From the NCBI GenBank assembly GCA_027592755.1, contig JAQCLE010000003.1:1-64000 (forward strand): DNA of 64,000 bases, in the 5' to 3' direction. Shown piece after piece: positions 10,173-54,937 of this stretch. Under the pieces are notes generated by a model, which was given only the letters and a program-made list of their open reading frames with translations, had not been told where the DNA came from and did no database searches. The position numbers and the translations under genes were made by a program. The stretch is from Bacteroidota bacterium (GTDB lineage Bacteria > Bacteroidota > Bacteroidia > Cytophagales > Cyclobacteriaceae). Positions within the stretch are counted from its first letter, which is position 1. Each line of letters starts with the position of its first letter.

Positions 10173-10256
10173 GCGCATGTGGTGAAATTGGTATACACGC
10201 CAGCTTGAGGGGCTGGTGGGCGCAAGCCCGTGGAGGTTCGAGTCCTCTCATGCGCA
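10173..10256 (+). tRNA. tRNA-Leu (anticodon GAG)
   Basis: An 84-base class II tRNA. The acceptor arms GCGCATG and CATGCGC pair fully. The anticodon stem CCAGC/GCTGG encloses the loop TTGAGGG, giving anticodon GAG for CUC/CUU codons. A long variable arm (TGGGCGCAAGCCCG region) and the T-arm GGTTCGAGTCC are present. CCA is not encoded. Confidence 0.95.
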
Positions 10257-10323
10257 CTTTTTGCTTTTCCTTCTTCTCAATGATTGTAATTGAAAAAGAA
10301 CTCCCCTATCATTAACTTAATGT

Positions 10324-14040: not shown

Positions 14041-14172
14041 ATAAAGGGGAACTTCTGCTTTCCTTGTTTTGCTGCCTATCTTCCCTGCGCCGGCATTACC
14101 CGGATCAGGTTCAACGGGTATAATCTCAGCCTGTTTTTACTCCCAATTAAATTGGGAAAGGCACCCCTTTAT
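14041..14172 (-). promoter_or_regulatory. TPP riboswitch (THI element) and expression platform
   Basis: On the minus strand the aptamer core runs from about 14169 down to 14078: GGGGTGC, then CTGAGA, then ACCCGTTGAACCTGATC, GGGTAATGCCGGCGCAGGGA, all canonical conserved blocks. The receptor ATG at 14009 follows after about 70 bases. The 9-base sequence ATAAAGGGG at the 5' edge of the aptamer (plus strand CCCCTTTAT, 14164-14172) is perfectly complementary to CCCCTTTAT in the platform RNA (plus strand ATAAAGGGG, 14041-14049). This could be the switching helix. TPP binding is expected to lower expression of the receptor. Confidence 0.92.
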
Positions 14173-14192
14173 TTAAATCAAAATTACTTGTG

Positions 14193-23242: not shown

Positions 23243-23578
23243 CTACAAAAAAACCACATCGTCAATCACACTTTCTGAAAACTCCCGGTTCAAAATTTCC
23301 AACACCTTTTTTTTAGAATGATCAAGCTCACTTCTCAAGGGAGCAGAATTGAGATGCACATAAAGTTTCCTATTGTTGATGTATAGCTTCTCCGTTCGTA
23401 CGGCAATTGGCTTGCCCATTAACTTACTCCATGAGCTGATAAGGTTTTTCTCCTTGAATTTATGATCGATATGATACTCATTCAATAAATCATTGAAAGC
23501 GTCTTTGATTGAAATGGTCTCTGATTTTCTCTTATTGTTCGCCCCTTTTACCATGTCACGAGATTTTATGTACTCCAT
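23243..23578 (-). CDS. DUF721 (DciA-like) protein
   Basis: A 111-residue small basic protein of the DUF721 family that habitually sits next to recF. The core reads WSKLMGKPIAVRTEKLYI and ends in EILNREF. DciA members load the replicative helicase; Bacteroidota versions are poorly studied. The first codon is uncertain: Met9 is an alternative, and with the annotated ATG the gene overlaps recF by 23 bases. Lies downstream of recF in the same transcription direction. Confidence 0.8.
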   Translation of the reverse strand: MEYIKSRDMVKGANNKRKSETISIKDAFNDLLNEYHIDHKFKEKNLISSWSKLMGKPIAVRTEKLYINNRKLYVHLNSAPLRSELDHSKKKVLEILNREFSESVIDDVVFL

Positions 23579-24659
23579 CTTTCACAACTTCAAATATCTC
23601 AACTTCTGCTTCAATTTCTTTTACAAGTTCCTGGGTTCTTTCCATTCTGGCATCCGTAATGAAAATCTGACCTAGAGAATCTTCGTTCAGTATTTTTGAC
23701 AGGCTTTTTATACGTTCATCGTCGAGTTTGTCGAAAATATCATCCAGTAGAAGGATGGGTTTGAACTTTTTTTCATTACAGATCATCGCATATTGGCCAA
23801 GTCGTAATGCGATTACAAATGACTTTTGTTGTCCCTGCGAACCAATCTTTTTCAAAGGCTTCCCTGCCAGGAGAAATTCAAAGTCATCACGATGAATGCC
23901 GAAACCAGTTCTTTGAGTGGCCAGGTCACGTGCATAGTGTTTTTTGAAGTTCTCATAAAAGTCTCCTTTTGCGTAATCTGATTGATAAGCAATTTGGGCC
24001 ACTTCTTTTCCGGCAAGTTTTCTATAGTATGACTCAAAATAAGGAAGATAGGCAGCAAGGTAATCTCTACGTTTTTCCCATATTACTGAGCCGCTTATAA
24101 CGAGTTCCAGGTCGTACTTCTCAATTAATTCACGATCCTGATTTTTTCTTTCTGCAAAAAGTTTGAGCAGGCTGTTTCTTTGCTTCAAATAGTGATTGTA
24201 TTTTACAAGACACTGAAAATATTCCTTATCAATCTGACAGAGCAAAGTATCAAAAAACTTTCTTCTTAAATCACTCCACTCCCTTACCAAATCTGTATCG
24301 TTAGGGCTTATCAACACTGCAGGGAATTCTCCAATATGATCACTAAGCTTTTCATAAGGGCAGTCATCTACATGAAATACTTTTTTTAATCCGTTCTGAT
24401 AGGAGCACTGTACTTTGTAATTTTTACTTTCTTTGTTGAGCGTTCCTATTATAGAAAAAAAATCTTCCCCATGATTAATATTCTGTTGATCGGAAGAATT
24501 AATGGCACTTTTTGTAAATGAGAGATAGTAGATAGCATCCAACAGGTTTGTCTTTCCCATTCCATTACGCCCAATCAACGATACTACGTTCGATTTAAAG
24601 GTAATGTCTATCTTTCTGTAATTCTTAAAATTAACCAGTCGAAGTCGTTTGATGAACAT
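23556..24659 (-). CDS. recF: DNA replication and repair protein RecF
   Basis: A 367-residue SMC-like ATPase that helps load RecA at single-strand gaps. Walker A GRNGMGKTN is at 30-38; the ABC signature region is KIGSQGQQKSFVIALRL, and Walker B is ILLLDDIFDKLD. Full length. Transcribed away from pdhA and followed by DUF721. The dnaA-recF linkage of many bacteria is not seen here. Confidence 0.96.
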   Translation of the reverse strand: MFIKRLRLVNFKNYRKIDITFKSNVVSLIGRNGMGKTNLLDAIYYLSFTKSAINSSDQQNINHGEDFFSIIGTLNKESKNYKVQCSYQNGLKKVFHVDDCPYEKLSDHIGEFPAVLISPNDTDLVREWSDLRRKFFDTLLCQIDKEYFQCLVKYNHYLKQRNSLLKLFAERKNQDRELIEKYDLELVISGSVIWEKRRDYLAAYLPYFESYYRKLAGKEVAQIAYQSDYAKGDFYENFKKHYARDLATQRTGFGIHRDDFEFLLAGKPLKKIGSQGQQKSFVIALRLGQYAMICNEKKFKPILLLDDIFDKLDDERIKSLSKILNEDSLGQIFITDARMERTQELVKEIEAEVEIFEVVKDGVHKIS

Positions 24660-34365: not shown

Positions 34366-35379
34366 CTATGTAATTTTTAATTGGTTAGTATATTCTTCGA
34401 GATGACTTTCGAATTTCTTAATAGTTTCTTCTAGTGAGACAGCTGATTTACCTCCGGCAGCATTCTTATGCCCACCCCCCGAAAAATGACGTCTTGCAAA
34501 TTCATTCACAGAAAAATCCCCTAGAGAACGAAATGAAATTCTTACACCATCTTCTCTTTCAATAAATGTCGCTGCCATTTTGATGCCTTTAATGGACAAT
34601 CCGTAGTTCACCAGACCTTCAGAATCACCGGTTTGATAATTGTACCTCTTAAGATCTGTAGATGATAAAGCGAAGAAAGCAACATTATATTCCGGTATTA
34701 CCTTTAACCGCTCAGACAATGCAAACCCCATCAGTTTCAGTCTGTTCAATGTATTAGAATCATAAATTCTTTGGGCGATCTGGTTTACATCGGCACCACA
34801 ATGAATCAATCGGGCAACTGTTTCATGTACCTTTGCGGTAGTTGACGAATGCCGAAACTGACCTGTGTCCGTCATAATACCTGCGTATAAATTTTCAGCA
34901 ATGTCTTTATCAATAAGTGATATATCTCCCATTAGAGTAATAAGATCGACTATTAACTCGGCTGTTGCAGCAGCTTCAGTTGACCACAATTTGAAATCAG
35001 CAAAATCTTCAGGGTCGAGATGATGGTCAATCAGAACTTTCCTGGAAGGAGAAGCCCTGATGATCTCCCCCAAACCATCTAATCGATTCAAACTGGAAAA
35101 ATCGAGACAAAATATCAATTCAGCTTCGTGGATAAGTCGCCTGGTTTGAATCTCGTTTCCAGAATTATAGATGATTACGCCCTCGTTGCCTTTCATCCAT
35201 TTGAGAAAATCAGGGTAATCGCTGGGTGATATTACGTCTACGCGATGATTTCGCTTTTTTAAATAAGCCGCCAAACCAAGTGAGGAGCCAAGGGCATCCG
35301 CATCTGGTTTTGTGTGCATTATAATTACACATCGCCTGGGGAAACTTAGAAGTTCCTTGAAGTTCTTGAAGTTCTGCAT
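34366..35379 (-). CDS. DHH-family bifunctional oligoribonuclease/PAP phosphatase (NrnA-like)
   Basis: A 337-residue DHH/DHHA1 phosphoesterase. Manganese motifs are MHTKPDADALGSS (about 21-33), CLDFSSLNRLDGLG and LIDHHLDPEDF (DHH 118-120); the DHHA1 substrate motif is FSGGGHKNAAGG near the C-terminus. NrnA-type enzymes degrade short oligonucleotides and pAp; related enzymes degrade cyclic dinucleotides, but no CdA/GdpP-type sensor domain is present. It is first in the nrnA-FKBP-FKBP unit and divergent from ndk. Confidence 0.9.
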   Translation of the reverse strand: MQNFKNFKELLSFPRRCVIIMHTKPDADALGSSLGLAAYLKKRNHRVDVISPSDYPDFLKWMKGNEGVIIYNSGNEIQTRRLIHEAELIFCLDFSSLNRLDGLGEIIRASPSRKVLIDHHLDPEDFADFKLWSTEAAATAELIVDLITLMGDISLIDKDIAENLYAGIMTDTGQFRHSSTTAKVHETVARLIHCGADVNQIAQRIYDSNTLNRLKLMGFALSERLKVIPEYNVAFFALSSTDLKRYNYQTGDSEGLVNYGLSIKGIKMAATFIEREDGVRISFRSLGDFSVNEFARRHFSGGGHKNAAGGKSAVSLEETIKKFESHLEEYTNQLKIT

Positions 35380-46195: not shown

Positions 46196-46211
46196 TGTTC
46201 CACGTGGAACC
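46196..46211. other. parS-like ParB binding site 1
   Basis: TGTTCCACGTGGAACC is 14 bases of perfect palindrome (GTTCCACGTGGAAC) and differs from the 16-bp parS consensus form TGTTCCACGTGGAACA only in the last base. It begins directly after the ybeY stop codon, in the 59-base ybeY-mnmG gap. Confidence 0.85.
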
Positions 46212-46230: not shown

Positions 46231-46246
46231 AGTTCCACGTGAAACT
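46231..46246. other. parS-like ParB binding site 2
   Basis: AGTTCCACGTGAAACT keeps the core GTTCCACGTGAAAC, one base from a perfect palindrome. Its centre is 35 bp from that of site 1, about three and a half helical turns, and it ends 8 bases before the mnmG start codon. Confidence 0.8.
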
Positions 46247-46254
46247 TCCTTGAT

Positions 46255-48117
46255 GTGTTTCCAGAATATGATGTAATTGTGGTGGGCGCCGGTCATGCCG
46301 GTTGCGAGGCAGCTGCTGCTGCTGCTAATATGGGATCCAAGGTCATGCTTGTGACCATGAATATGCAGACTATTGCCCAAATGTCATGCAACCCAGCGAT
46401 GGGCGGTATCGCGAAAGGGCAAATTGTAAGAGAAATAGATGCGCTCGGAGGATATTCAGGAATCATTTCCGATGAGTCCATGATCCAATTTCGGATGCTC
46501 AATTTATCCAAAGGTCCTGCAATGTGGAGCCCCAGAACACAAAATGATAGAATGAAATTCGCCGAAAAATGGAGGCTCGCACTTGAAAGAATTTCTAATC
46601 TTGATTTTTGGCAAGAAATGGTCAATGGGATAATAGTTAAGGATGGGAAGGCATGTGGGGTTATTACCGGCATGGGACTTAAGATCCTGTCAAAGACAGT
46701 TATTCTTACGAATGGTACTTTTCTTAATGGAGTAATTCATATTGGGGAAAAGCAGTTTGGGGGCGGAAGAACTGGCGAGAAAGCAGCAACAGGGATTACA
46801 GAGCAGCTAATTGAATTGGGTTTTGAGTCTGGGAGAATGAAAACTGGTACTCCCCCAAGGGTTGATGGAAGAAGTTTGAACTATCATGTCATGGAAGAAC
46901 AACCAGGTGATGAAAATCCCTGGAAGTTTTCTTATTCTAATACGGCTCCCCTGACAAACCAACGAAGCTGCCATATAACATATACAAATACTCAGGTTCA
47001 TAAAGTGCTCGAAAAGGGCTTTGATCAATCCCCCATGTTCACAGGCAGAATCAAAGGTATTGGACCAAGGTATTGTCCATCTATTGAGGATAAAATCAAC
47101 CGGTTTTCTGAGAGGGATCGCCATCAGATTTTCGTTGAGCCGGAAGGTTGGAATACAGTAGAGGTTTATGTTAATGGATTCTCTACATCCTTGCCTGAAA
47201 ACATTCAAAATGAAGCGCTTCGGCTTATTCCAGGGTTCGAAAACGTAAAAATGTTCAGGCCTGGGTATGCAATTGAATATGACTATTTCCCGCCAACACA
47301 ACTGAGCGCTTCTCTGGAGACGCATCTTATCAAAAACCTTTATTTCGCAGGCCAAATAAATGGTACAACCGGATATGAAGAAGCAGCGTGTCAGGGATTA
47401 ATGGCTGGGATAAACGCCCATCGCAATGTTCATAACCTCAATGCATTTATTTTACAACGGTCTCAGGCCTATATCGGTGTTTTAATAGATGATCTTATAA
47501 ATAAAGGTACCAACGAGCCTTATCGCATGTTTACCTCCCGGGCTGAGTTTAGGATCTTGTTGAGGCAGGATAACGCTGATATTCGCCTTACTGAACTTGG
47601 GCACAGCATTGGTTTGGCAGATGATAATCGATTAGAAGCAACTTTGGATAAAAAGCTTGAAACAAAGGAAGTAATTGAGTTACTTCATAATTTCAAAGTA
47701 TCACCGGAAAGCATTAATGACAATCTGGAGAATGTCCAAACTGCTACCATTCGGGAAAAAGTCTCCTGTCACAAGCTTATAAAGCGGCCTCGGCTTTCAA
47801 TCAAAATATTAAGATCCATGAGCAAAGAACTGAATAAACTGTGCCTCAAATATTCAGATGAAGTACTGGAACAGGCAGAAATTCAGATTAAATATGAAAC
47901 TTATATTGATAAGGAAGAAAAGTTAGTTGTAAAGATTGCAGGCTTTGAGAACCACAAAATTCCGATGGTGTTAGATTATTCAAAAGTTCATGCGCTGTCA
48001 TCGGAAGCAGTTGAAAAACTTAACAAAGTACGTCCAGAAACTATAGGGCAAGCCTCTAGGATTAGTGGTGTATCTCCTGCAGATATTTCAATTATTATGG
48101 TTTATCTCGGCAAATAA
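46255..48117 (+). CDS. mnmG: tRNA uridine-5-carboxymethylaminomethyl modification enzyme MnmG (GidA)
   Basis: A 620-residue FAD enzyme that with MnmE modifies wobble uridines of tRNA. The FAD motif VGAGHAGCEAA is at 10-20; SCNPAMGGIAKG and GLMAGINAH are standard blocks. The start is GTG at 46255: the conserved FPEYDVIVVGAGHAG follows directly and no in-frame ATG is closer. The gene begins 9 bases after parS-like site 2. In many bacteria mnmG flanks the replication origin. Confidence 0.96.
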   Translation: MFPEYDVIVVGAGHAGCEAAAAAANMGSKVMLVTMNMQTIAQMSCNPAMGGIAKGQIVREIDALGGYSGIISDESMIQFRMLNLSKGPAMWSPRTQNDRMKFAEKWRLALERISNLDFWQEMVNGIIVKDGKACGVITGMGLKILSKTVILTNGTFLNGVIHIGEKQFGGGRTGEKAATGITEQLIELGFESGRMKTGTPPRVDGRSLNYHVMEEQPGDENPWKFSYSNTAPLTNQRSCHITYTNTQVHKVLEKGFDQSPMFTGRIKGIGPRYCPSIEDKINRFSERDRHQIFVEPEGWNTVEVYVNGFSTSLPENIQNEALRLIPGFENVKMFRPGYAIEYDYFPPTQLSASLETHLIKNLYFAGQINGTTGYEEAACQGLMAGINAHRNVHNLNAFILQRSQAYIGVLIDDLINKGTNEPYRMFTSRAEFRILLRQDNADIRLTELGHSIGLADDNRLEATLDKKLETKEVIELLHNFKVSPESINDNLENVQTATIREKVSCHKLIKRPRLSIKILRSMSKELNKLCLKYSDEVLEQAEIQIKYETYIDKEEKLVVKIAGFENHKIPMVLDYSKVHALSSEAVEKLNKVRPETIGQASRISGVSPADISIIMVYLGK

Positions 48118-48119
48118 AG

Positions 48120-49007
48120 ATGTATGAGAAACTAAAAGAATGCCCCGTTTGTAAGCACGAGGAGTTCTCTAATTTTTTAATTTGTTCAGATCACTTACTT
48201 ACTGACGAAAGTTTTGCTATCGTACAATGTGCCAATTGTGGTTTAAAATTCACTAACCCGAGACCTACGCCTGATAATATTGATAGGTACTATCAATCCA
48301 ATGAATACGCTTCCCATCAATCAAAAAGCCTCACTTTAACAGATCACATTTATAATCTTGTTAGAAAATTTACGCTCAAAAAGAAACTTGGATTAGTTAA
48401 CAGCGTAGCTGAACAGAGAGGTAACCTGTTGGATGTCGGTTGTGGAACAGGCCTTTTTCTAAAAACGTGTAAAGCCGGCGGGTGGGAAACTACAGGTGTT
48501 GAGACAAATGTAAAAGCAAGAACGATTGCCATCTCTAACAATTGTGGCGAAATCCATGACCATGTTGCGAATCTTCAGGGGAAAATGAAATTTCGAATAA
48601 TCACCCTATGGCATGTGTTAGAACACCTCCATGATCTTAACGGTTCAATGGAGCTCTTTAGAAGACTTTTAAAGAAAGATGGCAAGCTTATTATAGCAGT
48701 ACCAAACAGCAATTCGTGGGATTGTCATCACTATGGGGACATGTGGGGAGCATATGATGTTCCGCGTCACCTCTACCATTTTAATCAATTGACTATCAAC
48801 TACTTAGCCAAACAATGTAAATTCAGAGTTCAACATGTCGTTCCTATGAAACTTGATGCATTTTATGTTAGTTTGCTCAGTGAAAAATATCTCCATGGAT
48901 CAAATAGGTTCATACGTGCTATCAAGAGTGGATTGAAATCGAATCAATGGGCAAAGCGCAATCAAAACAATTATTCCAGTCTCATTTATATTCTTTCAAA
49001 AAAATAA
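48120..49007 (+). CDS. Class I SAM-dependent methyltransferase with N-terminal zinc-ribbon-like motif
   Basis: A 295-residue protein. The N-terminal CPVC (8-11) and CANC (37-40) pairs suggest a zinc-binding module. The Rossmann methyltransferase core has motif I LLDVGCGTG at 103-111, then WHVLEHLHD and VPNSNSWD typical of Methyltransf_23 family, which often act on sugars, quinone precursors or small molecules. Substrate unknown. Starts 2 bases after mnmG; its end overlaps the next gene by 61 bases. Confidence 0.85.
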   Translation: MYEKLKECPVCKHEEFSNFLICSDHLLTDESFAIVQCANCGLKFTNPRPTPDNIDRYYQSNEYASHQSKSLTLTDHIYNLVRKFTLKKKLGLVNSVAEQRGNLLDVGCGTGLFLKTCKAGGWETTGVETNVKARTIAISNNCGEIHDHVANLQGKMKFRIITLWHVLEHLHDLNGSMELFRRLLKKDGKLIIAVPNSNSWDCHHYGDMWGAYDVPRHLYHFNQLTINYLAKQCKFRVQHVVPMKLDAFYVSLLSEKYLHGSNRFIRAIKSGLKSNQWAKRNQNNYSSLIYILSKK

Positions 49008-50791
49008 GAACGCTATTTCTTCCGGTTTTTGGAGTTATTCTCTATGGTTCCTTCCTTTTTTCCTGTGCCAACAAGGGGACGCTCACCGGGGGTGAAAAAG
49101 ATACCATACCACCGACATTAATTTCATCATTTCCAATTCAGGAAACTTTGAATTTTGATGGTACTGAAATAATATTGACGTTCGATGAGCGAATTCAAGC
49201 TTTGCAATTGCAACGAAAATTATTGATCACACCGTTTTCGGATGTTAAATACAAGGTGAAAGCCGACAAAAATGTATTGCAACTCAACTTCGAAGAACCA
49301 TTTGCAGACAGTACTACTTACACCATCAATTTTGCGGACGGTGTAACTGACGTCACAGAAAACAATCCCGTTTTAAACCTGTCCCTGGCATTTAGTACTG
49401 GTGATGTAATCGATTCTCTTTTCATTTTTGGTAAGGTTATAAATCTTATGACAAACCTACCTCCAGAAGTTGCTGGCATCTCGCTCTATCCCGCAAATGA
49501 TACACTTGACATATTTTCAGGTAAACCATATTATTTTACTTACTCAGACGAAAAAGGTGCTTTCAGAATTAATAATATGAAAAATGGGGAGTACCGTATT
49601 TATGCTTTCATTGATGAAAACAACAATTTTCTAAACGAATCCGGCCAAGAGCCTCATGGATTCCTGCCCGATACTTTCAATCTTTCCGACTTCTCAGACT
49701 CACTCACAATCAAATTATACCAACAAGACGTTCAGGAATTAAAATTGGTCAATAGCCGGGCTTTGGGCTCTCACTTCGATGTCAGATTTAATAAGCCAAT
49801 TGTGTCATATTCTTTATCAACTCTTGATTCCTCGTCTTCAAGTCTTAAAACACACATAACACCAGATAGTCTCATTCTGAGATTCTATAACTCCAAAATC
49901 CCTCTGGTCGATAGTGCGGCTTATATCGTTCATGCGGTTGACAAAGTAGGAAATTTTTCCAATGACACTGTCTACGCTAAATTCACCGATAGGGAAATAA
50001 AATTCGAAGCCTTAAAATTAAACGTAAGTCCCCCGGATAAAGCCCAAGTTCTGGATCAGATAATGCTCAATTTCACTTTCAATAAACCCATTAATTATTT
50101 CAATGGTGACAGCCTTCTTGTGAAATACGATACATTAAGAACTGATCGTTTAGATTCCATAACAGATTTGACCTGGAATAATACTAAAACCGAATTAACT
50201 GCAATATTGATTCCCGATCGTCAATATCTCATTGATTTAGAGGCCCTAAATAAATTAAGATCCGATAGCATAAAAATTTTACAGGACTCTTTAAAAGTTC
50301 TCGGCATAGTAGATACAACAAGTCTTGTTGGTACACCAAAAGGAAGTTCCAAAGACACGGCCAAACCCCTTCAGACCAATCGTTTAAGACTCTATTTAGG
50401 AAAGGGAGCTTTTATCTCAATTGAAAATGATTCCTCCAAACTCATTAATTATATCTACTCCTACAGAGAGCCGGAGAAATATGGCAAAATCAGCGGTATT
50501 GTTCAAACCGCATCAACCAGTTTTTTCATCCAATTGATTGACCAAAAGTTCAAAGTGATAGACGAAGTTTATAATCAAAAGAATTATCAATTCGAATTCG
50601 TTCCTCCTGGCAAATACAAAATTCGCGTCTTAATTGATTCTAATTTAGACGGTCAATGGTCGGCTGGAAATGTTAGAGAATGGAAATCCCCCGAACCAAT
50701 TTATTTTTTTCCAGAGTTCATTGAATTGAGGGAAAACTGGGAGATAAACGAGATAAACCTGAACATAGAAAACATCGTTGATAAACTGTGA
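48947..50791 (+). CDS. Ig-like domain lipoprotein (SbsA-type)
   Basis: A 614-residue lipoprotein with Cys40 in FLFSCANKG, followed by the TLTGGEKDTIPPTLISS entry seen in a common Bacteroidota family. One bacterial Ig-like domain (about 55-140) precedes further beta-rich repeats and a C-terminal carboxypeptidase-like fold (DSNLDGQWSAGN). It is probably outer-membrane anchored. The ATG at 48947 lies inside the methyltransferase frame, and I found no later in-frame ATG before the signal, so the 61-base overlap is likely real. Confidence 0.8.
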   Translation: MGKAQSKQLFQSHLYSFKKIRTLFLPVFGVILYGSFLFSCANKGTLTGGEKDTIPPTLISSFPIQETLNFDGTEIILTFDERIQALQLQRKLLITPFSDVKYKVKADKNVLQLNFEEPFADSTTYTINFADGVTDVTENNPVLNLSLAFSTGDVIDSLFIFGKVINLMTNLPPEVAGISLYPANDTLDIFSGKPYYFTYSDEKGAFRINNMKNGEYRIYAFIDENNNFLNESGQEPHGFLPDTFNLSDFSDSLTIKLYQQDVQELKLVNSRALGSHFDVRFNKPIVSYSLSTLDSSSSSLKTHITPDSLILRFYNSKIPLVDSAAYIVHAVDKVGNFSNDTVYAKFTDREIKFEALKLNVSPPDKAQVLDQIMLNFTFNKPINYFNGDSLLVKYDTLRTDRLDSITDLTWNNTKTELTAILIPDRQYLIDLEALNKLRSDSIKILQDSLKVLGIVDTTSLVGTPKGSSKDTAKPLQTNRLRLYLGKGAFISIENDSSKLINYIYSYREPEKYGKISGIVQTASTSFFIQLIDQKFKVIDEVYNQKNYQFEFVPPGKYKIRVLIDSNLDGQWSAGNVREWKSPEPIYFFPEFIELRENWEINEINLNIENIVDKL

Positions 50792-51164
50792 AATTAAACT
50801 CCTGAAGAAGTTTAAAACTTAGTGAAGTAGATTAAATGAATAGATTAAATGAATTACAAGATTCTTCATGTTAATCAATCGAAGGTTATGAACTTTTTAG
50901 TAAGAAAATGATTTAGATCTGTGATTTATTAACAATCTGGTCCAATTTATGGATAAGTTTATAAAACACTGATAATCAATATATTATAAATAATATTGAT
51001 GTTAATATTTAACTATTTATCCAAATCTAATTAACATAATACTTAAATTGATTCATATGTCTTGCATTATCAACATATTCACAGCCCTAATAAATAATAA
51101 TAATTAAATTATAGATTAATATTTTTATTATACATCAATGTAAAATGTGTATAACCGTTCCCGA
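50792..51164. other. AT-rich gene-free region, candidate chromosomal replication origin (oriC)
   Basis: No gene fits here. Over 50941-51120 only 32 of 180 bases are G or C. DnaA-box-like 9-mers (consensus TTATNCACA): TTATACACA on the minus strand at 51146-51154 (perfect), ATATTCACA at 51075-51083 (one mismatch), TTATCAACA at 51067-51075 (one mismatch), TTATCCAAA at 51017-51025 and minus-strand TTATCCATA at 50948-50956 (one mismatch each). A palindrome ATCAATAT/ATATTGAT spans 50975-51000. mnmG and two parS-like sites lie about 4.6 kb away. Confidence 0.55.
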
Positions 51165-52979
51165 ATGAATTGTATTAAGTCATATCTTTTTTTATTCATA
51201 ATAATAAATTCATTGAATTCGTTTGCTCAAAATGCTGGACAAATTCAACTCGCTAACGAATATTACCTCATGGGTGAATTAGAAAAGGCCATCGATATTT
51301 ATAGTGAACTGGCAAAGGATTCTAAGAATGTTCCACTTATTCATAGTAATTATTTTAACCTATTGATAAATGCGGAAGAGTATAAAGAGGCTGAAAAATA
51401 TATTCGAAATATTATAAAACAATTCAAGGATAACCTCTATTACAAGATTGATTATGGAATATTAATGTTGGCCCAGGGTAATGACTCAGAGGCAAATAAA
51501 CAGTTTGCAACAATAATTGAAGAGATCAAGGAGGATCAATATCGGTTGAGAATAACTGCGCAATATTTGGTCCAGAAACAATTACGGGAATGGGCACTTA
51601 CTGCGTATCTGGACGGAAGGAAAGCAAACGATAATCCCTGGGCTTATTCTCTTGAGTTGGCAAATATCTACCGCCTGATTAACAAGAAAGATAAAATGGT
51701 TGAAGAGTATTTAAATTATGTTAACCAGAATCCAGCCAACATCAGCTATGTAAAAAATATTCTTCAAAATTTACTGGCTGAACCTGCGGATTTAGTAAGT
51801 CTCGAAAATATTTTGATACAAAAGGTTCAGAAATTTCCAAACGAGAATATTTATTCAGACTTACTCATTTGGGTGAACCTTCAACAAAAGAATTTTTTTG
51901 GAGCTTTTATTCAAGCAAGGGCTGTTGATAAAAAATCAAAAGCTGAAGGAACGGGTGTCTTGGAAATTGGAATGATTGCTCTAAAAAATAGCGCCTATGA
52001 GGATGCGATTGAGATATTTAACTACGTTATTAAAAATCATCCAAAGTCAATTAATTACTCTATTGCGAGACGACTTGTAATTCAGGCAAGGGAAGGAATG
52101 GTAAAAAATACGTTTCCAATTGATGAATTGGAAATTCGGAAGCTTATCACGGAGTATGAAAATTTGATTTCTGAACTTGGCGTTAATTCGAATACAGTAG
52201 AAGCCATGCGAAACAAAGCCCTACTCCACGCATTTTATCTCGATGAGAAGGACTCCGCTATAAATATTCTCAATAGGATTATTGATATGCCAAGAGTAAA
52301 TGTCGGTATCAAAGCAAAAAGCAAACTCGATTTAGGAGATATCTACATTCTGACCGGAGAATCGTGGGAGTCAACATTGTTGTATTCTCAGGTTGAAAAA
52401 ACAAACAAAGAGCAGCCCATCGGATACGAGGCTAAATTAAAAAACGCAAAACTGAGTTATTATAATGGAGACTTTGAACTTGCCAAGGCCCACCTCGACG
52501 TATTAAAAGAAGCAACGACAAGAGAAATTTCCAATGATGCAATCGATTTAAGTTTGCTTATTCACGACAATACGTTTCTTGACTCGACGGATGCCATAAT
52601 GAAGCAATATTCATACGTTGAGTTGCTTCTTTTCCAGAATAAGAAAAATGAAGCACTGGATTCCTTGGATCAAATGTTGAAGAGTTATCCCGATCACAGT
52701 CTTGTGGACGAAATTTATTTCCTTTCAGCTAAAATCAATCGTCAGATAGGTTCATTTGAAACGGCCATTCAATATCTCGGAAAAATTGATGAAAGTTATG
52801 CAGAGGACATTCTGGGCGACGATGCATTATTCATGATGGCTCTTATTTATGAAAATGACCTGAAAATGAAAGATAAGGCCCGGGAGATTTATCAAAACTT
52901 TCTGACGAAATATCCAGGGAGTGTCTTTATCGCCGAAGCAAGAAAGCATTTTAGGACTCTTCGGGGCGATACTATTTAG
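51165..52979 (+). CDS. TPR-repeat secreted protein
   Basis: About 604 residues from the ATG at 51165, which begins a clear signal peptide (SYLFLFIIINSLNSFAQ); an upstream GTG frame start overlaps a DnaA-box-like site and is less likely. The mature protein is an array of TPR-like helical pairs from ANEYYLMGELEKAIDIYSEL to YQNFLTKYPGSVFIAEARKH. A scaffold role in the envelope is likely, but no specific function is known. The gene ends with a 4-base overlap with the convergent NAT gene. Confidence 0.82.
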   Translation: MNCIKSYLFLFIIINSLNSFAQNAGQIQLANEYYLMGELEKAIDIYSELAKDSKNVPLIHSNYFNLLINAEEYKEAEKYIRNIIKQFKDNLYYKIDYGILMLAQGNDSEANKQFATIIEEIKEDQYRLRITAQYLVQKQLREWALTAYLDGRKANDNPWAYSLELANIYRLINKKDKMVEEYLNYVNQNPANISYVKNILQNLLAEPADLVSLENILIQKVQKFPNENIYSDLLIWVNLQQKNFFGAFIQARAVDKKSKAEGTGVLEIGMIALKNSAYEDAIEIFNYVIKNHPKSINYSIARRLVIQAREGMVKNTFPIDELEIRKLITEYENLISELGVNSNTVEAMRNKALLHAFYLDEKDSAINILNRIIDMPRVNVGIKAKSKLDLGDIYILTGESWESTLLYSQVEKTNKEQPIGYEAKLKNAKLSYYNGDFELAKAHLDVLKEATTREISNDAIDLSLLIHDNTFLDSTDAIMKQYSYVELLLFQNKKNEALDSLDQMLKSYPDHSLVDEIYFLSAKINRQIGSFETAIQYLGKIDESYAEDILGDDALFMMALIYENDLKMKDKAREIYQNFLTKYPGSVFIAEARKHFRTLRGDTI

Positions 52980-54373: not shown

Positions 54374-54937
54374 TTAAGTCAATTCCTTATATCGGAAACA
54401 ATCGGTGACATGGTCGTTGACCATACCAATTGCCTGCATGTGTGCATACATAATGGTACTCCCAACAAATTTGAAACCCCGCTTTTTCAAATCTTTGGAA
54501 AGGGTATCAGATTCTTTTGATGTTGCCGGAATCTCCTGGTCCATCTTCCATTCATTAATGAGTGGCTTACCGCCAACAAATGACCATATATATTTATCAA
54601 AAGTTCCGAACTCCTCCCTTACCTTAATGAACGCCTTTGCATTGGTGATAGCAGAATTAACTTTTAGCTTATTCCGAATGATGCCTTTATCTTGAAGCAG
54701 TTGATCAATTTTTTTCTGATTGAATTTAGCCACTGCCTCAAAGTCGAATTTAGAAAAGGCATTCCGATAGCCATTCCGACGCTTAAGAATGGTACTCCAA
54801 CTTAAGCCAGCTTGTGCACCTTCAAGAATCAAAAATTCGAATTGTTTCTTATCATCATGAATTGGGACACCCCATTCCTCATCATGATATTTCACATATT
54901 CCGGGAAACTATTTTCGCACCAGCGACAACGTTTCAT
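54374..54937 (-). CDS. tag: DNA-3-methyladenine glycosylase I
   Basis: A 187-residue repair enzyme that excises 3-methyladenine. The zinc ligands Cys4, His18, His176 and Cys180 correspond to Cys4, His17, His175 and Cys179 in E. coli Tag. The entry RCRWCENS and the catalytic Glu38 in LEGAQAGLSWSTIL are present. Complete and standard. Confidence 0.95.
   Translation of the reverse strand: MKRCRWCENSFPEYVKYHDEEWGVPIHDDKKQFEFLILEGAQAGLSWSTILKRRNGYRNAFSKFDFEAVAKFNQKKIDQLLQDKGIIRNKLKVNSAITNAKAFIKVREEFGTFDKYIWSFVGGKPLINEWKMDQEIPATSKESDTLSKDLKKRGFKFVGSTIMYAHMQAIGMVNDHVTDCFRYKELT

Follow-up and report, generated by a model that had tools for sequence, protein, structure and literature searches.

A probable chromosomal replication origin in a Cytophagales genome, with a conserved DnaA-box layout and a DnaA box facing back across an AT-rich element

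The window analyzed here comprises bases 1-64000 of contig C103 from a draft genome of 4.21 Mb in 196 contigs. Between a Big_5 (Ig-like), lipoprotein-like gene (48947-50791, plus strand) and a gene for a TPR-repeat protein (51147-52979, plus strand), which starts with GTG, 355 bases carry no gene, and no open reading frame of at least 80 amino acids was found between the two. Further along on the Big_5 side lies mnmG (gidA; 46255-48117, plus strand), a gene that also neighbors the Escherichia coli oriC. In named records, the two proteins closest to the TPR protein come from MAGs, one assigned to Cyclobacteriaceae (50% identity) and one, a chromosome, to Cytophagaceae (49%), which makes the genome probably a member of the Cytophagales. 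The gap (50792-51146) has a GC content of 20% (20.4% over 50792-51154), and it holds the lowest 180-base segment of the 64 kb (15.6% GC, at 50953); away from the gap, the lowest value is 24.4%, at 54905. The original prediction had singled out this gap as gene-free and extremely AT-rich, which these values bear out, and an AT-rich unwinding element is expected of a DnaA-dependent oriC. The palindrome that it had also listed exists (50975-50982 / 50993-51000), but it is short. Two other readings of the gap were considered and rejected: as a promoter or terminator region, since 50500-51500 has 7 promoter-like sites against 7.2 expected and no terminator, and as a known RNA element, since the gap has no Rfam match at the gathering threshold. 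Elsewhere in the window, a TPP riboswitch (14065-14178, minus strand) is, apart from one tRNA, the sole Rfam match at that threshold, and tRNA-Leu (GAG) at 10173-10257 (plus strand) is the sole tRNA found.

DnaA boxes were defined by at most one mismatch to TTATCCACA, and offsets are counted from the first base of a pair of tandem boxes (0 = 51067). Four such boxes were found: TTATCCATA at 50948-50956 (minus strand, one mismatch, offset -119), TTATCCAAA at 51017-51025 (plus strand, one mismatch, -50), TTATCAACA at 51067-51075 (plus strand, 0), and TTATACACA at 51146-51154 (minus strand, +79), the last overlapping the TPR start codon. The second of the tandem boxes, ATATTCACA (51075-51083, plus strand, +8), has two mismatches. 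Two further degenerate boxes, also with two mismatches, occupy positions that are conserved in relatives, namely, TTATCAACG at 50776-50784 (minus strand, -291, conserved at -290), within the 3' end of the Big_5 gene, and TTATTAACA at 50926-50934 (plus strand, -141, conserved at -150/-140). The boxes of this gap are weak, none of them being an exact TTATCCACA. The box at 51146, which had been described as perfect, has one mismatch to TTATCCACA and fits the relaxed form TTWTnCACA given in PMC10380432. The cluster itself stands: four boxes compare with a mean of 0.16 in 2000 dinucleotide shuffles, of which one reaches four, and this is the densest cluster of the window (4 per 400 bases versus at most 2 elsewhere), the kind of above-chance clustering expected of a DnaA-dependent oriC.

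Downstream of the tandem boxes, a GCC(C) spacer leads into the trio-like repeat CTA-ATA-(A)-ATA-ATA-ATA-ATT (51084-51105, plus strand), whose minus strand can be read as NAN trios once a one-base slip is allowed. Together, tandem boxes, spacer, and repeat resemble the basal unwinding system (BUS) of the Bacillus subtilis oriC, described as tandem DnaA boxes, a GC-rich spacer, and DnaA-trios (PMC6669920, PMC8287927); the order of spacer and then trios is that described for the BUS in PMC8287927, with the B. subtilis trios as in PMC10316083. The rule given in PMC8287927 (one or more DnaA boxes, a spacer of up to 16, and at least three NAN trios) fits the box at 51075-51083, with its two mismatches, a spacer of 10, and 4 trios; because of the slip, an unbroken reading from the nearest trio yields only 2. 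Since the lax rule, with a box within two mismatches, holds at 72 places of the window, agreement with it is weak evidence and only conservation discriminates. The AT-rich stretch at 51084-51145, between the tandem boxes and the box facing them at 51146, is the presumed DNA-unwinding element.

To assess conservation, a profile, R1, was built from 25 relatives, the window's genome being excluded. In a search of that genome in which 150 of 1915 first-look candidates were scored, R1 ranked 51067-51132 first of 7 matches, with a modest E value of 0.024 and the next match at 0.48. The BUS-like module thus has a conserved placement in the alignment of 25 relatives and the top rank here, and the possibility of a stronger site elsewhere in the genome, raised by the original prediction, was answered in its favor within those candidates by the conserved-site profile rather than by a count of boxes. 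The TPR protein was matched in 52 of 59 genomes. Among 29 loci (the 30 best TPR matches including the window, minus one with short upstream sequence), 26 carry at least three DnaA boxes with up to one mismatch in the 700 nt preceding the TPR gene; no box was found there in the other three (L027, L028, and L029, from G039, G058, and G038). G038 has its best profile match elsewhere, beside a Big_5 gene (L162), and model R1 gave no convincing match in G039 and G058. Four of six loci with TPR relatives of 28-32% identity had no R1 match.

R1 was also run against 20 genomes that lacked the TPR gene or its boxes or had not yet been examined for them. The best match adjoins a Big_5 relative in 11 of them, and the remaining 9 had no match beside a Big_5 relative. 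In 9 of the 11 Big_5-linked loci the TPR gene, a common but variable right neighbor among relatives, was not found beside the site. Open frames read by eye in six of these nine show right neighbors that vary by locus: L158-L160 have an AMP-binding acyl-CoA ligase, L161 and L163 a MarR-type regulator and, after it, a 3-hydroxyacyl-CoA dehydrogenase, and L162 an aminotransferase. In these genomes, the Big_5 flank is thus kept and the genes on the opposite flank change right at the origin, so that rearrangement borders seem to fall at oriC.

The layout of the site was compared across 39 loci: 26 upstream of the TPR gene (the window included), with anchors placed by eye, the 11 Big_5-linked R1 loci, and L182 and L183. 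Omitted were L001 (the same place as L002), L007 (20 nt upstream), L027-L029 (no site), L184-L187 (no R1 match), and the weak best matches of the remaining R1-searched genomes. Because the 39 loci are related, they cannot be counted as that many separate events; behind the boxes, their ungapped identity has a mean of 0.41 and a maximum of 0.81. In relatives, boxes recur at about -290 (minus strand), -190 and -150/-140 (plus), -70 (minus), 0 (plus, tandem), and +70/+80 (minus); the window has degenerate boxes at -291 and -141 and sites at -119, -50, 0, +8, and +79. The tandem boxes are followed by a short spacer and a TAATAA-type repeat; on the minus strand, a TAG adjoins the box, and TAT trios, interrupted by a slip of one base, come after it. 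A further fixed element is an IHF-like site, AATCAATATATTA (50974-50986, plus strand, offset -93), which matches exactly the IHF consensus WATCAANNNNTTR as given in PMC10380432. Exact matches occur at offsets -95 to -92 in 8 of the 39 loci, all on the plus strand, and with up to one mismatch the site is found within -98 to -89 in 17 of 39, versus 0-7 (plus strand) and 0-8 (minus strand) in other 10-nt bins. One gene of the HU/IHF family was found in the window's genome, and we infer that a protein of this family would bind the site. The BUS-like module, the fixed IHF-like site, and the conserved distance of the 51146 box are additions to what had originally been predicted.

Since the window's genome is in 196 contigs, the argument from GC skew is one by homology. 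Skew was sampled in 5 single-contig relatives as 20 stretches of 20 kb round the circle, starting from the homologous gap (1779 masked bases in the G036 set). It was positive in 46 of 50 right-half stretches and negative in 46 of 50 left-half stretches, and the sign changes at the homologous site in all five relatives, as expected of an oriC. In four of them, the best division of the circle into two halves coincides with the candidate, and in one it is a single sampling step away; the pattern is weakest in G040, with positive skew in 6 of 10 stretches on the right and a sampled cumulative minimum two steps off. On the window's own 97-kb contig, position 51000 separates a left part with a skew of +0.006 from a right part with +0.057; the cumulative minimum is at 35198, and this contig alone is therefore weak skew evidence.

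Two parS sites, with the cores GTTCCACGTGGAAC (46196-46211) and GTTCCACGTGAAAC (46231-46246), lie near the gap. Sites of this kind are found 4.4-5.0 kb away on the mnmG side here, in G012 (one, 4.4 kb), and in G036 (three, 4.9 kb), both of which also keep mnmG and Big_5 on the same side of the site, and no perfect parS was found in 2 Mb of sampled far stretches. The two parS-like sites noted originally are thus real, and the GC-skew check that had been proposed, run on closed relatives, favors an origin. Taken with the conserved box layout and parS about 5 kb off, the sign change in relatives supports the original proposal: by comparison, we consider the gap at 50792-51146 to be the chromosomal origin, oriC, with a probability of roughly 95%.

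Two competing placements of the origin were weighed against this evidence. The gap could be a DnaA-titration or regulatory site (datA/DARS-like) or a DnaA-regulated TPR promoter, with the real origin elsewhere. An IHF site combined with DnaA boxes is also found in datA (PMC10380432), the 51146 box overlaps the TPR start codon, and over 200 contiguous kb (5000 masked bases in the G012 stretch) the cumulative skew minimum lies off the site, 27 kb away in G012 and 44 kb in G036, both times on the mnmG side; at 0.5-0.7% of the chromosome, these distances also count in favor of the origin reading. However, the sign change at the homologous site in five of five relatives and the nearby parS speak against titration or regulation, and the tandem and facing boxes persist at loci where no TPR gene adjoins them, so that we regard this explanation as very improbable. 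Alternatively, some assemblies are numbered from dnaA, which would place the origin there; the single contig of G028 is one of them (G028:C1:391). Yet the skew of G028 switches about 0.96 Mb from dnaA, and in Bacteroidetes oriC is commonly far from dnaA (PMC4755523). The circular distance from the site to dnaA is about 0.86-2.8 Mb in G012, G013, G028, G030, G036, and G040 and about 0.76 Mb in G045, so that in these seven closed or nearly closed relatives the expectation of a Bacteroidota origin far from dnaA, on which the original prediction had drawn, holds. In the window's genome dnaA is on another contig (C102), and adjacency to dnaA, which is usual for oriC and not required, is lacking. 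Given the skew switch and the dnaA distance in relatives, dnaA was rejected as the origin, a placement to which we give almost no credence.

Within the preferred reading of the gap as oriC, the box at 51146 deserves separate treatment. In 24 of the 39 loci, the far side of the AT-rich element carries a minus-strand box with up to one mismatch, 70-82 bases from where the tandem boxes start, compared with a mean of 0.8 and a maximum of 4 in 300 shuffles; at the same stringency, a box of the opposite orientation was found at this distance in none of the 39. With up to two mismatches and within 64-85 bases, the facing box is present in 32 of 39, and its distances cluster at 68-76 in 15 loci and at 78-82 in 17, with means of 71.7 and 79.8, about 8 bases apart. 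In 5 of the 39 loci no facing box within two mismatches was found. The box is kept in 8 of the 9 loci without an adjoining TPR gene, and we therefore rejected the view that it is part of the TPR start. A second facing box in tandem was mostly not found, the corresponding position having at least 3 mismatches in 16 of 17 longer-spacing and 15 of 15 shorter-spacing loci. A mirrored spacer/trio motif behind the facing box, chosen after looking at the loci, occurs in 19 of 32, against a shuffle mean of 3.6 and a maximum of 10.

Of 291 genomes of the order, from 116 genera, 29 (14 genera) match the exact convergent pattern and 6 (6 genera) match the version with the box turned round; backward-read controls gave 4 of 291 and 10 of 291, respectively. 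Many of the convergent matches come from one genus (g48), and judged by eye, about five of the 29 convergent genomes and all six turned-round ones look like chance. The window itself has no match to this strict pattern. One convergent match, G100:C21:30248-30319, fits on both strands and represents a nearly symmetric origin core. At the class level the convergent pattern was found in 3 of 198 genomes, one of them an order member (G066) and one that looks coding by eye; since the backward control also gave 3 of 198, the exact pattern is demonstrated only within the order.

These observations suggest how the origin may work. DnaA would bind the boxes upstream, which in relatives sit at about -290, -150/-140, and -70, and an IHF/HU-family protein would bend the DNA at the fixed -93 site, the bend delivering DnaA to the tandem boxes at 51067-51083. 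From there, a DnaA oligomer would grow along the trio-like repeat and melt the AT-rich element at 51084-51145, with the facing box at 51146-51154 marking its far end. Opening from the tandem boxes is the most likely course because the known BUS works in this way. More speculatively, the facing box could nucleate a second DnaA assembly on the other strand, each strand would then receive a helicase with DciA as helper, and replication would leave both ways.

Whether the facing box has this second role is weighed here within the oriC reading. It may be an extra regulatory DnaA site only, with one-sided unwinding as in B. subtilis, and we lean slightly toward this assignment. The left boxes are tandem while a second right box is mostly lacking, some loci have no facing box, and the order-wide excess is smaller when counted by genus (14 versus 6 of 116). 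The narrow distances and strict orientation (none of 39 reversed) argue in the other direction, as do the persistence of the box where the TPR gene is absent and the 29 convergent versus 6 tandem genomes of 291. From the conserved arrangement we infer that the facing box may load DnaA on the other strand, and a fuller proposal, which we hold tentatively and as possible rather than probable, is that the Cytophagales origin is two-sided: two BUS-like modules would face each other across an unwinding element of about 50-65 bp, with DnaA on both strands and both helicases placed by the same rule, without a DnaD-type strand selector. If so, the two spacing classes would be explained either by an additional degenerate 9-base box or by geometric limits on how the two assemblies fit together. 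PF07261, which we take to be the DnaD-type domain, was not found in any of six genomes, while B. subtilis and Lactococcus were positive as controls; DciA was found in all six. DciA is considered the ancestral helicase helper (PMC5109545). Two-sided loading is attractive since PMC10201434 calls it unclear how the helicase reaches the opposite strand, with DnaD bound opposite the trios as the proposal for B. subtilis.

Compared with known origins, the site shares with the B. subtilis BUS tandem DnaA boxes, a short GC-containing spacer, and NAN trios with TAG nearest the box. It differs in that the tandem boxes of the window share one base, its trios, mostly TAT, are broken by a one-base slip, the DnaD-type domain was not found in the six genomes searched, the origin lies away from dnaA, and a DnaA box faces back from beyond the AT-rich element. 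As in the E. coli oriC and Vibrio cholerae oriC1 (PMC10380432, PMC10316083), boxes occur in both orientations and an IHF-type consensus has a set place; in those origins, however, the box groups form one region flanking the DUE, whereas here one box faces from the other side. Origins predicted in Bacteroidetes by Ori-Finder/DoriC, such as that of Prevotella intermedia (PMC4755523), likewise have a DnaA-box cluster at the skew transition and far from dnaA; neighbor genes, a facing box, and a fixed IHF-like site are not among the features described in the passages of that source on such predictions. An oriC plasmid has been used in C. hutchinsonii, according to the plasmid table of PMC5288383. 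In a limited test of the open-access literature, no description of this origin arrangement was recognized. The unusual feature is the fixed arrangement, in which an IHF-like site is combined with a DnaA box that points back over the AT-rich element; distance from dnaA is already common in Bacteroidetes, as reported in PMC4755523.

The site would locate the start of replication in a large bacterial group in which an assembly may be numbered from dnaA and the origin lie elsewhere, as in G028; with an origin away from dnaA, chromosome maps and replication-rate estimates therefore need another zero point. The facing box offers a concrete candidate answer to the question of how the helicase reaches the opposite strand, and it can be mutated singly. 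Finally, dciA (PF05258) adjoins a RecF-like gene (SMC_N profile) in the window (23243-24659, minus strand), about 27 kb from the putative oriC and on a different contig from dnaA; in five relatives, dciA lies roughly 260-630 kb from the origin.
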